NCBI RefSeq assembly: GCF_005849285.1
Contig: NZ_CP040517.1
Span: 2,300,501-2,364,500, forward strand
Direction: 5' to 3'
Source: Luteithermobacter gelatinilyticus
Lineage (GTDB): Bacteria; Pseudomonadota; Alphaproteobacteria; Sphingomonadales; Emcibacteraceae
DNA length: 64,000 nt
The position numbers and the translations under genes are program-made. The first letter of the stretch is position 1, and the number at the start of each line of letters is the position of its first letter. Below, piece by piece: positions 35,726-40,821 of the stretch. The notes below the pieces were generated by a model. The model had not been told where the DNA came from. It made no database searches and worked only from the letters and a program-made list of their open reading frames with translations.

Positions 35726-35757
35726 TTGACTCTGGAGTATACTTCAGAGTCCAGAAT
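35726..35757 (+). promoter_or_regulatory. MerR-type promoter with 20-bp spacer and dyad operator
   Basis: TTGACT (35726-35731) and CAGAAT (35752-35757) are 20 bp apart, the long spacer typical of MerR-family promoters. ACTCTGGAGTA and TACTTCAGAGT (35729-35750) form a dyad with one mismatch, closely resembling the ZntR/PbrR operator type. It precedes merR and would drive the whole metal operon. Confidence 0.7.
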
Positions 35758-35801
35758 TGAGATCAGACATCGGATTCTGATACCGATCACAAGAGGCAAC
35801 C

Positions 35802-36203
35802 ATGTTCATAGGCGATCTGGCGAAAAAAACAGGGATTAGCATTGATACGATCCGCTACTATGAGAAGGCCGGATTGATCTTCCCGGTTTCTGTATGCAAA
35901 TCCGGATACCGTGAATTCGACGACACGGCGGCAGAAACATTGCGCTTTATCACGCGGGCCAAACAGCTTGGCTTTTCACTCCGGGAGATTCGCGACCTGC
36001 TTGCCCTGAAAAAGACCCCTGAGACAACCTGCAAACAGGTCAAAGCACGCGCCGAACAAAAACGCGCTGAAATCATCCACAAAATACAAAGCCTCCAGGA
36101 AATGAAAAAAGAACTGGACGCCCTTGTCCACGCCTGCCGGGGAGATGAGTCCGGGCTGGAGGCCTGCTCTATTGTAAAAACGTTAGAAGGAAAGGAGCAA
36201 TAA
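35802..36203 (+). CDS. merR: MerR family metal-responsive regulator
   Basis: This 133-residue regulator has the MerR winged helix (IGDLAKKTGISIDTIRYYEKAGLI), the SGYREFDDTAAETLRFI hinge and a long dimer helix. Cys77, Cys112 and Cys122 match the spacing of the three mercury ligands of classic MerR (82, 117, 126). The operator upstream looks more like a ZntR/PbrR site, so Hg(II) is favoured by the protein but Zn, Pb or Cd are not excluded. It is the first gene of a five-gene operon rather than divergent as in Tn501. AGAGG precedes the ATG. Confidence 0.85.
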   Translation: MFIGDLAKKTGISIDTIRYYEKAGLIFPVSVCKSGYREFDDTAAETLRFITRAKQLGFSLREIRDLLALKKTPETTCKQVKARAEQKRAEIIHKIQSLQEMKKELDALVHACRGDESGLEACSIVKTLEGKEQ

Positions 36204-36204
36204 A

Positions 36205-37080
36205 CTGCGACAGTATGGGCTAAATCTGATGTTTATATTTGTGCTGCTTGCAGCCGACAAAGCCGCGGCGGCGCCGATCACCTTCAACACAGCTCTGCCG
36301 ATCAGCAAGGGCGAAATCATTTTTCGTGAACAGCTCATCTATGGCCGTGCAAAGGAGGGCGGACGCGAGATGACACGGCTGACCTTCCTGTCGGTGGCGG
36401 CCTATGGCGTCACTCCAGATCTGGCCCTCTTCGCCGTGTTGCCCGTCCTCCGAAACAAATTGAGCATGCCGGGGCTTGAACGACAGGCCACGGGCCTTGG
36501 GGACATGCGCCTGTTTAGCCGATATACCATTTACCGGCGGGATTTCCGGGGCGGCACCTTCCGCTTTGCCCCCTTTGCTGGGCTTGAACTGCCGACCGGA
36601 GAACATCAGGAACGAGATGAGCGGGGGCTACTGCCCCCTGCTCTCCAGGCTGGTTCGGGAAGCTGGGATATTGTTTTTGGTCTTATCGGCACCTATGCCA
36701 CGGTGGATTTTAACCTGGATGCTCAGGTCTCCTGGCAAGAGAACCGCAAAGCCGGCGGCATTGAGACCGGTGATGTTTTCAGGACAGACGTTTCAGTTCA
36801 ATACAGACTTTATCCGCAGGAAATCGGAGACGGCGAAATAACGGGTTTTCTTTATGGCGTGCTGGAAGCCAGTCTGGTTCATGAAGGCAAAAACCGCACT
36901 GCAAATCTGCCTGATCCCAATTCGGGCGGGACAAAACTGTTTATCTCTCCTGGCCTACAATATGCGGCAACACGCTGTATTGCCGAGGCAACTGTGCAGC
37001 TTCCCGTACTCCAGAACTTAAATGGTGCAAACCTGAAACAGGACTATGTCTTGCGCGCGGGCTTCAGGATCAATTTCTAA
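36205..37080 (+). CDS. Secreted beta-barrel-like protein in metal operon
   Basis: This protein resembles the MetA-pathway phenol-degradation/transporter-like outer membrane family, with alternating beta-strand sequence and a final aromatic FRINF. An N-terminal signal peptide ends in AAAAP. No ATG, GTG or TTG opens the frame before 36229. A CTG at 36205, seven bases after AGGAG, would give a proper n-region (LRQYGLN); the ATG at 36229 is 31 bases from that site and lacks a positive charge. I give the CTG start with caution. It may form an outer membrane channel for metal export or uptake. Confidence 0.65.
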   Translation: MRQYGLNLMFIFVLLAADKAAAAPITFNTALPISKGEIIFREQLIYGRAKEGGREMTRLTFLSVAAYGVTPDLALFAVLPVLRNKLSMPGLERQATGLGDMRLFSRYTIYRRDFRGGTFRFAPFAGLELPTGEHQERDERGLLPPALQAGSGSWDIVFGLIGTYATVDFNLDAQVSWQENRKAGGIETGDVFRTDVSVQYRLYPQEIGDGEITGFLYGVLEASLVHEGKNRTANLPDPNSGGTKLFISPGLQYAATRCIAEATVQLPVLQNLNGANLKQDYVLRAGFRINF

Positions 37081-37097
37081 AGGACGGGGCAAAGATC

Positions 37098-37406
37098 ATG
37101 AAAAGATATTTATGGTTATTGGTTTTTTTGGCACTAGGAACAGAGACAGCGCTGGCGGAAGAGGTGCAATATATCCTGCATATCGACGGAATCACCTGCC
37201 CTTTCTGCGTGGCAAGCTCGGCGAAAGCCCTTAAAAAGATCGAGGGCGTCAAGGATATCAGATCAGACTTGAAGGCGGGCACGATTACGGTATGCGCCGA
37301 TGCCCGAAAGGTTGCCTTTACGGACGAGCAGCTTACGGCGCTCTTCAGGGAAAAAGGATTTACCTACCGGGGTATGGAAAGAGCTGAACAATGCCAGCCT
37401 CTGTAA
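37098..37406 (+). CDS. merP: Periplasmic heavy-metal-binding protein, MerP-like
   Basis: This 102-residue protein has a signal peptide (YLWLLVFLALGTETALA) and an HMA domain with the metal motif GITCPFC (Cys34, Cys37). Like MerP it would bind Hg(II) or another soft metal in the periplasm and pass it to MerT. The C-terminus is longer than classic MerP and has extra Cys (TVCADAR, EQCQPL). AAGGACGGGG precedes the ATG. It overlaps the GDCCVxC gene by 16 bp. Confidence 0.85.
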   Translation: MKRYLWLLVFLALGTETALAEEVQYILHIDGITCPFCVASSAKALKKIEGVKDIRSDLKAGTITVCADARKVAFTDEQLTALFREKGFTYRGMERAEQCQPL

Positions 37407-37609
37407 GACGACACTCCATTATCACGTGCCCCTTATGCGGCTTCTCCCGGGAAGAAACCATGCCGCTCAATGCCTGCTGGTATTTTTATGACTGCTCGAA
37501 ATGCGGCGGCTTGATCAAGCCGAAGACCGGCGACTGTTGCGTGTTCTGTTCCTATGGAACAGTGCCCTGCCCGCCCGTTCAGGCAAAACGGGGGTGTTGT
37601 CATGGATAA
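37391..37609 (+). CDS. GDCCVxC domain protein
   Basis: This 72-residue Cys-rich protein has TCPLCG near residue 13, YDCSKCGG, the signature GDCCVFC at 47-53, and VPCPP and GCC near the end. The family is found with mercury transporters, and some members carry selenocysteine at the last signature Cys; here it is Cys (TGT). It probably binds metal in the cytosol, but its role is not established. It overlaps both merP and merT, so all three are coupled. Confidence 0.85.
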   Translation: MPASVRRHSIITCPLCGFSREETMPLNACWYFYDCSKCGGLIKPKTGDCCVFCSYGTVPCPPVQAKRGCCHG

Positions 37610-37991
37610 TATCAGAAAGCCAAAACAATGGGGATGGCTTGTTCTGTTCACTTCCACCGCAACGCTGGTCTGCTGCGTCATCCCCATTCTTCTCGTCAGC
37701 CTGGGCCTGGGTGCCGTCGCCGCAACCCTTTATGCAACACTGCCTATACTCACCTTTTTAGGGCTTCATAAGGCCTGGGTTTTTATCCTGACGGCCGCTA
37801 TCCTGGCTTTGGCCGGCTGGGCCCTTTACCGGCCCGGCTGGCGCTGTCCGGCTGATCCCGTACAGGCCCGGGCCTGCCTGACCACGCGAAAATGGAACAT
37901 TCGCTTGTTTTGGTTATCTTTGCTGATTTGGGGCGTGAGCTTCTTGGCGGCCTATCTTCTTCTCCCCCTCACCACATGGCTTGGCATATAG
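37602..37991 (+). CDS. merT: MerT-like mercuric ion transporter
   Basis: This 129-residue membrane protein has three hydrophobic segments, the paired Cys24-Cys25 in TLVCCVIPIL in helix one, and a cytoplasmic Cys pair (Cys82, Cys92). These match MerT, which moves Hg(II) from MerP into the cell. The ATG at 37602 has GGGGG upstream and lies eight bases inside the previous gene. No merA follows, so the imported metal's fate is unclear. Confidence 0.85.
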   Translation: MDNIRKPKQWGWLVLFTSTATLVCCVIPILLVSLGLGAVAATLYATLPILTFLGLHKAWVFILTAAILALAGWALYRPGWRCPADPVQARACLTTRKWNIRLFWLSLLIWGVSFLAAYLLLPLTTWLGI

Positions 37992-38148: not shown

Positions 38149-38595
38149 ATGTCACAGATTATTCGACAGAAAAGCCTGCTCAGCGGCCTGATGCCCCGCC
38201 TTAACCGGGCCGTCAGCCTGATGCTGTTCCTGTCGATATTCTTCAACATCGTCATGACGGTTTCGGCGGCCCGAGCTGCGCCGCTCAGCCAGATTGACGG
38301 TTCATCGACCCTGGCCACAGGCGGCACTTTCTATTTGTGTTCCCCTTACGGCCTGAAATCCGTCACGCTTGATGAAAACGGCAACCCGGTGGATCATGAT
38401 ATCGCCTCCACCGTATTCTGCGTCTTCTGCCTGCCGTTCAACAAAACGGATCTGACACCGCCGGCGATGGCACACGTGCCTCTCGCCCCCGCCCCTGTCA
38501 CCGCGCCTTCATATCCCATATCCGACGCCACGCCTTTGCCGGTCGCCTTGGTTGCTGTCCCCCCGGCCCGCGCCCCCCCAATCTTTTTCCTCTAA
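38149..38595 (+). CDS. DUF2946-like secreted Cys protein
   Basis: This 148-residue protein has an N-terminal basic and hydrophobic signal (VSLMLFLSIFFNIVMTVSAARAAP), a Cys in FYLCSPYG (Cys64) and a CxxC in FCVFC (Cys91, Cys94). The C-terminus is Pro/Ala-rich. It matches the DUF2946 group often found beside copper receptors and fits a periplasmic copper-handling role. The ATG at 38149 is inside a longer open frame from 38086. The receptor gene follows after 96 bp. Confidence 0.7.
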   Translation: MSQIIRQKSLLSGLMPRLNRAVSLMLFLSIFFNIVMTVSAARAAPLSQIDGSSTLATGGTFYLCSPYGLKSVTLDENGNPVDHDIASTVFCVFCLPFNKTDLTPPAMAHVPLAPAPVTAPSYPISDATPLPVALVAVPPARAPPIFFL

Positions 38596-38691: not shown

Positions 38692-40821
38692 ATGAGTTCT
38701 TATACAAAGTTCACCACCACACAAGCGGCCTCGCTCGCCTCCTGCCTGGCCCTGATGCCTTTTATGGCCACAGCCCAGACCACCGTGATCACCGAGGGGG
38801 GAAAACAGCACACCATGATGGAGGAAGTCACGGTCACCGGCCAAATGACCGACACCCCCACCCTGTATATTGCGATCCCCAAGGATTCCGGCCTGATATC
38901 CCCCGCCGATGGCGGCGATTTTCTGCGCACGCTGCCCGGGGTCACCGGCAGCCGTATGGGCGGACACGGCATAGACCCCGTCATCCGCGGGCAGACGGCC
39001 AACCAGCTCAACATCATCAATAACGGCGCCTATATTTACAATGGATGCCCGAACCGGATGGACCCGCCGTCCTCCTATGCGGATATTCTGACCACCGACC
39101 GGGTGATTGTGCAGCGCGGCTATCAGTCCGTGCAACATGGGCCCGGCGGCAGCGGTGGTACCGTGATCTTTGAACATCAGCCGCCCGAATTCGACACCGG
39201 CGAGACTTTCAAGGCCGGCCTGGCGGCAGGCTATGAAAGCAACGGCGACAATGTCTTCACCGCCGCCGACCTGGCCGGCAAGATGGGCAAGGGCTATGTG
39301 CGCGCCACAGGGCACTTCCGGGATGCCGGCAATTATGAAGACGGCAACGGTGATGAAGTGCGCTCCTCTTTTACCCAGTATGGCGGCGCCATCGAGGCCG
39401 GTTTCAAAAACGAAACAACCGAAGCCAGCCTGGGACTCGATTATGAAAAACTTGAGGACGTGCTGTTTCCCGGCGCGGGCATGGACAGCCCCTCTTCCGA
39501 AAGCTATACCCTCCGCGGCAAACTGCGTCATGAACTGGCCGGCGGTGGCAGCCTCAAGGCCCTGGAGGCCAGCGCCTATTACTCCGACGTGGATCACCTG
39601 ATGGATAACTTCTCTTTGCGCGACCGGACAATGATGTTCCGCGCCTCGCCGTCGCAGGCCAAAACCACGGGCGGCAAGATCGTTGCCAACCTTGTCCTCG
39701 GCCAGTCGGAACTGGATCTGGGGGTTGATCTGCAAAACGCCAACCATGACGGCCAGCGCCTTGGCAATGACATGACCCCGGACATGCTGAATTTTGTCCA
39801 GTCCGTCCTGCTGCCGGACACCACGGTGCGCCAGATCGGTTTTTTTGCCGAGAATGTCGCGCCCATGGCGGACCGGATGCGTCTTAAAACAGGGCTGCGG
39901 CTTGATATTGTGGATGCCTCCCTCGACAAGGCTGATGAGGTCACCACCATGAGCATGAGGCGCGCGCCCAATGACCTATACATCAAATATTACGGCCACG
40001 CGGCCGAAGACCAGACGGAACATAACCTGGGCGGTCTTGTGCGCCTGGAATATGACGCCACCGACGACAGCACTTTTTTCCTGGGCCTAAGCCGCAGCGT
40101 CCGCACCGCCAGCGCCACCGAACGCAGCATCGCCAGCGACATGGGCAATGCGCCCGCCATGAATATGAGCTGGGTCGGCAACCCCTTTCTGGAACCGGAA
40201 AAACACTATCAGATTGACCTTGGATACGGCATCCGCAAAACGGATTGGCAGCTATTGATTTCCGCCTATTACGACAAGGTGGATGATTATATTTTCCGCG
40301 ATCACGCCCGCGCTCAGGCCGGCATCCTGGTCAGCGACGGCGCGACCATCTATCGTAATATTGATGCGGAACTGATGGGGCTGGAAATCGAGGGTCACGC
40401 CAAACTGAGCAAGCACTGGCATGTGAGCGCCGATGCCGCCTGGAGTTATGGCCAGAATGAAGATCTAGACATTCCCCTACCGCAGATTCCGCCGTTGCAG
40501 GGACAAATGACACTGACTTATGAACAGGCTGATTGGCAACTGGGCGGGCGTCTGCGGGCGGCCACCAAACAGACCCGGATTGACGATAATCCCATGACCG
40601 GCAGCGGTCGGGATACGGGTGAAACCCCGGGCTATGTCACCGTCGATCTATTCGGTCGCTACGCCATACAGAAGAATGTGACGCTGAAAGCCGGAATTTC
40701 CAACCTTTTTGACAAGACTTATGCCGATCATCTGAATCGGGAAAATCTGGATACGGGGGCTGCCGTCCAGGTTAATGAACCGGGCCGCTCCGCCTATATC
40801 CGGTTTGAAGTAAAACTCTGA
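38692..40821 (+). CDS. TonB-dependent copper receptor, OprC-like
   Basis: This 709-residue receptor has a signal peptide, a TonB box-like MEEVTVTG, a plug with RTLPGVTGSRMGG, and NGCPNRMDPPSSYA. Cys119 and Met123 form the CxxxM motif that in Pseudomonas OprC binds copper. The barrel ends in YIRFEVKL. The DUF2946 gene precedes it. A terminator follows. Copper import is well supported by the motif; mercury operon proximity suggests a broader metal locus. Confidence 0.9.
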   Translation: MSSYTKFTTTQAASLASCLALMPFMATAQTTVITEGGKQHTMMEEVTVTGQMTDTPTLYIAIPKDSGLISPADGGDFLRTLPGVTGSRMGGHGIDPVIRGQTANQLNIINNGAYIYNGCPNRMDPPSSYADILTTDRVIVQRGYQSVQHGPGGSGGTVIFEHQPPEFDTGETFKAGLAAGYESNGDNVFTAADLAGKMGKGYVRATGHFRDAGNYEDGNGDEVRSSFTQYGGAIEAGFKNETTEASLGLDYEKLEDVLFPGAGMDSPSSESYTLRGKLRHELAGGGSLKALEASAYYSDVDHLMDNFSLRDRTMMFRASPSQAKTTGGKIVANLVLGQSELDLGVDLQNANHDGQRLGNDMTPDMLNFVQSVLLPDTTVRQIGFFAENVAPMADRMRLKTGLRLDIVDASLDKADEVTTMSMRRAPNDLYIKYYGHAAEDQTEHNLGGLVRLEYDATDDSTFFLGLSRSVRTASATERSIASDMGNAPAMNMSWVGNPFLEPEKHYQIDLGYGIRKTDWQLLISAYYDKVDDYIFRDHARAQAGILVSDGATIYRNIDAELMGLEIEGHAKLSKHWHVSADAAWSYGQNEDLDIPLPQIPPLQGQMTLTYEQADWQLGGRLRAATKQTRIDDNPMTGSGRDTGETPGYVTVDLFGRYAIQKNVTLKAGISNLFDKTYADHLNRENLDTGAAVQVNEPGRSAYIRFEVKL

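Follow-up and report, generated by a model that had tools for sequence, protein, structure and literature searches.

A five-gene operon of Luteithermobacter gelatinilyticus that joins mer-like proteins to an outer-membrane-type barrel under a zntA-like operator: a candidate trans-envelope metal module

In mer operons (MerR-MerT-MerP-MerA), the described systems closest to the locus considered here, MerT and MerP are importers, a textbook pair that is sensible only alongside MerA, and the carriers show paired cysteines in helix 1 and two more cysteines in a loop. No outer-membrane barrel is named among mer genes in the available portions of two mer surveys (PMC3466566, PMC8261052). A second relevant system is the ZntR-zntA regulon of Escherichia coli, whose sensor has Cys77 and loop cysteines 10 residues apart; position 77 is Ser in sensors of monovalent ions and Cys in those of divalent ions, according to the accessible part of one study (PMC11591864). 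Among outer-membrane proteins, the COG4313 channel Pput2725 (4rl8) has 12 strands (PMC4493636) and is implicated in hydrophobic uptake, whereas FapF (5o65) is implicated in amyloid secretion. Vibrio plasmids (NZ_CP069194 and NZ_CP119336, the latter with its barrel gene in two pieces) carry a cluster in which a divergent MerR gene is followed by genes for a GDCCVxC protein, a MerT-like protein, a heavy-metal-associated (HMA) protein and an outer-membrane barrel (OMP).

The window, a 64-kb stretch of L. gelatinilyticus DNA, holds a related set of five genes at 35802-37991 on the + strand (Table 1), in the order sensor, OMP, HMA, GDCCVxC and MerT-like membrane protein (MTL), with all frames open and successive genes set apart by gaps of 25 and 17 bases and then overlapping by 16 and 8. 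With mer operons it shares a MerR-family sensor, a MerT-like carrier with 2+2 cysteines and a MerP-like HMA protein, but it lacks merA, adds the barrel and the GDCCVxC protein, and has another operator. With the ZntR-zntA regulon it shares most of the promoter/operator, Cys77 and the spacing of the loop cysteines, but there is no zntA-type ATPase in the operon. Its barrel, unlike the COG4313 and FapF channels, sits among metal genes, and it differs from the Vibrio plasmid cluster in gene order and in its sensor, that of the plasmids falling in the clade of the Luteithermobacter genome's own merR. The first-pass annotation had joined these MerR, HMA, GDCCVxC, MerT-like and barrel genes into one set, as the open reading frames, family matches and cysteines bear out, but had called the genes that follow unrelated, which they are not: the DUF2946 protein and the TonB-dependent copper receptor are both metal-linked. 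The DUF2946 gene, 157 bp beyond the MTL gene, is perhaps a separate transcription unit, and the copper receptor, judged from its position, is a neighbour of the operon and a mere candidate for membership. A one-sequence model of this receptor gave no match above 15 bits beside the relatives L093-L183 and two weak matches in L232.

Table 1. Coordinates of the operon, its promoter and the genes downstream, numbered from the first base of the window.
Feature	Position	Strand	Evidence
MerR-type promoter/operator	35726..35757	+	-35 TTGACT, 20-bp spacer containing dyad CTGGAGTATACTTCAG, -10 CAGAAT
MerR-family metal sensor, Cys77/Cys112/Cys122	35802..36203	+	MerR-DNA-bind 78.5 bits
COG4313/Phenol_MetA_deg-type outer-membrane beta-barrel (OMP)	36229..37080	+	PF13557 32.8 bits (cut-off 22)
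HMA (heavy-metal-associated) protein, CPFC motif	37098..37406	+	PF00403 30.7 bits (cut-off 24.8)
GDCCVxC small cysteine-rich protein	37391..37609	+	NF041374 99.5 bits (cut-off 40)
MerT-like membrane protein (MTL), 4 conserved Cys	37602..37991	+	alignment; predicted inner-membrane
DUF2946 protein, next gene	38149..38595	+	PF11162
TonB-dependent copper receptor	38692..40821	+	TIGR01778 514 bits (cut-off 472)

The operator TTGACTCTGGAGTATACTTCAGAGT (35726-35750) has 22 of its 25 bases in common with the E. coli zntA promoter (three differences), in agreement with its earlier description as being of the ZntR/PbrR rather than the mer kind. A degenerate form of the pattern, allowed up to three mismatches, occurs at a single place in the 3.1-Mb genome, matched once per strand, and the reversed pattern, used as a control in the same search, found no match. 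The dyad class [CT]TGGAG-N4-CT[CT]CA[GA] has 63 copies in the 1,044,134 bases of 88 loci, and 46 of these lie at most 450 bp 5' of the first gene of the barrel-HMA-MTL module described below, at 34 of the 88 loci. A sigma-70 scan restricted to spacers of 16-18 nt found no promoter, as expected from the 20-bp spacer of the operon promoter, and terminator-like matches (five, against 4.3 in shuffles) were not in excess. At 12 loci, for example L127, L158 and L179, two CTGGAG...CTCCAG dyads precede the barrel gene, 59-71 bp apart in 11 of the 12; one of each pair may be the promoter operator and the other a leader element of some kind.

The sensor's three cysteines are confirmed, and Cys77 suggests, by analogy, a divalent metal (PMC11591864, available in part). 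Its scores lie below the cut-offs of all the NCBIfam equivalog models compared: CueR (TIGR02044, 124.2 bits against 147.4, with Cys instead of Ser at position 77), ZntR (TIGR02043, 116.2 against 167.95), MerR (TIGR02051, 101.5 against 150.85) and CadR-PbrR (100.1 against 151.45), so that it belongs to neither the ZntR nor the CueR family as these are defined. The MerR cut-off is likewise missed by the merR of the genome's own mer operon (119.7), and the MerP cut-off (TIGR02052, 92.55) both by the operon's HMA protein (27.4) and by the much closer merP of the mer operon (71.9); these two cut-offs therefore do not discriminate, and it is the best-scoring model that differs, MerR for the mer-operon merR and CueR for the sensor of the five-gene operon. 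In a tree of 65 sensors the latter sits on a long branch, its position without support, and does not group with mercury-responsive MerRs. Sensors encoded near the module on the same strand mostly lack Cys77 (33 lack it and 11 have it, the 11 including one duplicate and one truncated row), which makes the operon sensor atypical for the module, whereas those on the opposite strand have it in 13 cases, several adjoining mer genes, and lack it in one. Regulators of different types thus accompany related modules. At L168, a member of the operon's own clade (see below), a CueR-like sensor groups with E. coli CueR (96/79) and the promoter is copA-like (TTGACCTTCC...GGAAG). At the clade member L109 an Hg-like MerR groups with the Luteithermobacter genome's own merR (99/88), the sensors of Vibrio and Colwellia modules join these two (100/97), and CTGTAG-type dyads lie 5' of both merR and the barrel gene.

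The secreted protein had been guessed to be an outer-membrane part, and this is well supported. Its AlphaFold2 model (56 aligned sequences, pLDDT 91.6) best matches the COG4313 channel 4rl8 (Z 27.0, 245 residues, 2.1 A), followed by FapF (Z 24.4), and the predicted barrel fold and the PF13557 match agree on the COG4313 type, so that on the strength of the model we are confident of an outer-membrane-type barrel. The HMA protein has a signal peptide, judged by eye, and hence a likely periplasmic place, and its closest solved structures are chiefly copper HMA domains. The GDCCVxC gene is the sole copy found in the genome, its product scoring well above the family cut-off. The MTL protein, probably located in the inner membrane, matches no Pfam family, MerT (PF02411) included, unlike the genome's own merT (100.7 bits, cut-off 32.9), but it does have the cysteine pattern of mer carriers: C24, C25, C82 and C92 are invariant in a 7-row alignment, and in one of 46 rows the first three are invariant and C92 is kept in at least 90%. 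Its model is helical (pLDDT 77.9) and matched no solved fold, and is therefore uninformative on kinship with MerT.

A scan for the MTL family yielded at least 576 confirmed relatives, the best 80 of which were kept as survey loci, with neighbour distances of our own choosing (HMA within 2.5 kb, OMP within 3 kb, MerR within 4 kb); genes of the mer and czc kinds were counted wherever they fell in the retrieved sequence. The relatives are mostly named as members of Gammaproteobacteria groups, and many would, from isolate names, derive from vents or seawater. In a first count of the best 80 of at least 576 loci, an HMA gene was present at 77, an OMP gene at 68 and both at 67; an iterated barrel profile then found an OMP at five of the 12 loci lacking one, giving 73 of 80. 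The same 80 have a MerR-family gene at 48 loci, a CcdA/DsbD-type gene at 24, a czcA-like gene at 15, merA with C-terminal CC at 13, merT at 11 and GDCCVxC at four. The barrel, HMA and MTL genes thus recur as a trio. On a tree of MTL and HMA proteins the operon falls in a nine-member clade (SH-aLRT 100) with L146, L109, L105, L172, L125, L223, L168 and L098. At its sister locus L146 the genes run in exactly this order, sensor-OMP-HMA-GDCCVxC-MTL, and after them come genes for an outer-membrane efflux protein, for a membrane-fusion protein and for an RND pump of the CusA/CzcA family (1030 bits, cut-off 701); at L109, merC and merA are divergent to MerR-OMP-HMA-MTL; and a plasmid copy of the module in Vibrio alginolyticus adjoins copper-resistance genes. 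Each part of the operon is of a known kind, and the recurring trio is apparently undescribed: no description of it was found in a literature whose coverage is thin for subscription papers.

At 18 other loci (L225-L235, L237-L240 and L100-L102, many of the genomes small) a different secreted protein, bearing the motif 'RPVSYPGGW', is encoded directly 5' of the HMA-MTL pair and in every one of the 18 cases shares its strand. Three of these proteins, when scanned, had no Pfam family over cut-off, and one weak match below cut-off hints that the family is possibly barrel-like; twice (L230, L231) such a set lies near a sensor with Ser at position 77. GDCCVxC was considered as a marker of the system and rejected: of 289 genomes drawn from a class, 42 have a match over cut-off. 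Around 44 GDCCVxC matches, a single-sequence search found MerR of at least 70 bits at 12 loci and merT or merP of at least 40 bits at five, and no further operon gene apart from one HMA match of 24 bits; a literature search for "GDCCVxC" returned no paper.

The first-pass annotation had also seen no merA ahead of the genes that follow, and had held that importing Hg(II) without reducing it would be harmful. The absence is true locally but not of the genome, whose single merA over cut-off (540 bits against 454) is encoded at G000:C1:2370591-2371973(-), some 32 kb downstream of the operon and 6 kb past the end of the window, and the argument from harm fails with it. This merA belongs to a separate operon (merR/merT-merP-merA-182aa-arsR-like, the merR-family gene divergent), in which it is preceded by merT (PF02411) and an HMA merP-like gene, so that the genome can probably reduce Hg(II), by an operon distinct from the one studied here. 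A merA under the same operator, an arrangement named in advance as contrary to the first-pass reading, is ruled out as well, the mer promoter carrying the dyad ACCCTGTAATTAATACAGGGT, unlike the operator of the five-gene operon.

We tentatively favour, at somewhat less than an even chance, the view that the operon is induced by metal and serves to detoxify a divalent thiophilic metal by a trans-envelope route. The Cys77-type sensor would detect an excess of such a metal (of the Hg, Cd, Zn or Pb class) and would remodel the zntA-like promoter; MTL, HMA protein and COG4313-type barrel, acting together, would convey the metal across the envelope, or retain it there, by thiol exchange and away from the cytoplasm, on whose side the GDCCVxC protein may buffer or deliver it. 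Counted in its favour are the recurrence of the trio, the other secreted family that adjoins the HMA-MTL pair at 18 further loci, the barrel fold, the placement of the dyads, the gene order and efflux genes at L146, the variety of sensors, and the presence of merA in just two of the nine clade members. The trio occurs under Hg-like, Cu-like and zntA-like regulators, so that removal or sequestration is a simpler account of them all than induced import, and metal-induced import would make little sense at some copies because CueR-like sensors or operators lie beside them. Several points weigh against detoxification: MerT and MerP import in mer operons, and the parts therefore argue for inward flow; the operon encodes no energy source; merA or merT lies near the module at 18 of the best 80 of at least 576 loci; the divalent class is assigned to Cys77 by analogy, in a sensor atypical of the module; and COG4313 channels are proposed for the uptake of hydrophobic molecules (PMC4493636, available in part). 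The earlier suggestion that the metal may be exported or sequestered gains partial support: its outer-membrane component is well supported, and the trio, the scarcity of merA in the clade and the CueR-like sensors agree with it, while export or sequestration itself is what we infer.

Rather unlikely, in our estimate, is that the operon is an accessory Hg(II) uptake set, its barrel, HMA protein and MTL feeding the MerA encoded 32 kb away and its GDCCVxC protein serving as a cytoplasmic thiol relay. Besides the mer operon in this genome, it would account well for the mer-linked copies, among them the clade mate L109 with its merC, merA, CTGTAG-type dyads and mercury-type MerR, and the Vibrio and Colwellia sensors that join it. 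Of the survey's 77 module genomes, 41 have a merA over cut-off (26/48 and 15/29, counts that leave out L150 and L163), against 37 of 398 in a sample of the phylum, but the survey genomes were picked by similarity, neither the phylum nor the class sample is lineage-matched to the survey's metagenome-assembled genomes (MAGs), and absence of merA from a MAG is weak evidence. On the MTL and HMA tree, with states assigned by hand from the survey, phylum and class scans, merA follows lineage (16 changes, where shuffles give 32.5): one large group shows a strong link and other groups show none. Within the operon's clade only the Luteithermobacter genome and L109 have it over cut-off, and in the class sample of genomes at least 90% complete (Alphaproteobacteria, provided that G556 belongs there, as L171, its apparent copy and a 'Rhodospirillaceae bacterium', suggests) it occurs in two of 21 MTL carriers against 40 of 366 non-carriers; these counts argue against the module being just an uptake arm for mercury reduction. 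The one-contig, 100% complete genome G567 carries the trio but has no merA that passes the cut-off, the mer operon of the present genome already owns merT and merP under a different operator, and the five-gene sensor, its position in the tree without support, does not group with the mercury MerRs.

That the module instead handles Cu(I), or silver, among outer membrane, HMA protein and MTL, in connection with the DUF2946 and TonB copper receptor genes, we consider improbable. The copper domains nearest to the HMA protein, the prevalence of same-strand sensors without Cys77, the CueR-like sensor and promoter of L168, the receptor next door and the copper-resistance genes beside the V. alginolyticus copy all fit it, as does the finding that none of the genome's five MerR-DNA-bind matches is over the CueR cut-off, in scans that left out L186. 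Yet the operon sensor has Cys77 where Ser would be expected for a monovalent ion (PMC11591864, in the part available), its operator is zntA-like, relatives have no such receptor next to them beyond the two weak matches in L232, and two copper-type P-type ATPases (TIGR01511 609.8 and 547.8, cut-off 397) lie elsewhere, neither under the operon's operator. Very improbable is that these metal genes are in decay or came together by chance and have no joint role: the distribution is sparse, a single MTL sequence matching seven of 398 phylum genomes, the Luteithermobacter genome included, but the frames are all open, the genes tightly packed, and both trio and operator recur, L146 in identical order.

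A broader reading is, in our estimate, only slightly less probable than the favoured one: MTL, HMA protein and barrel may form the constant core of a tripartite trans-envelope system for soft metals that is widespread and works without mercuric reductase or an obvious energy source, and to which lineages would add a MerR-family sensor fitting the metal (Hg, Cu/Ag or Zn/Cd/Pb type). If so, relatives of MerT and MerP that recur with their own outer-membrane channel, often with no merA detected and under several types of sensor, would have a second, more general use. Mer-type systems would also gain an outer-membrane step, absent from the two mer surveys in their available portions (PMC3466566, PMC8261052).

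Some further observations concern the wider set of metal genes. The two heavy-metal P-type ATPases of the genome over cut-off (L195, L196) pass both the TIGR01511 and the cadmium-type models, the former scoring higher. At two distant places (L185 and L186; G000:C1:51955-52140 and 1455229-1455414) the listed translations are identical, and a CadR-type gene (TIGR02047 205 bits at L185, cut-off 151) is divergent from a Cation_efflux gene, perhaps the outcome of a recent duplication. Small cysteine-rich proteins are encoded near the module at other loci too, a profile of one such family covering 15 of them; those scanned gave no Pfam DUF2946 match. Two GDCCVxC homologues (G208:C26:369154-369324 and G122:C160:1833-2003) contain one in-frame TGA each, a feature consistent with selenoprotein forms.
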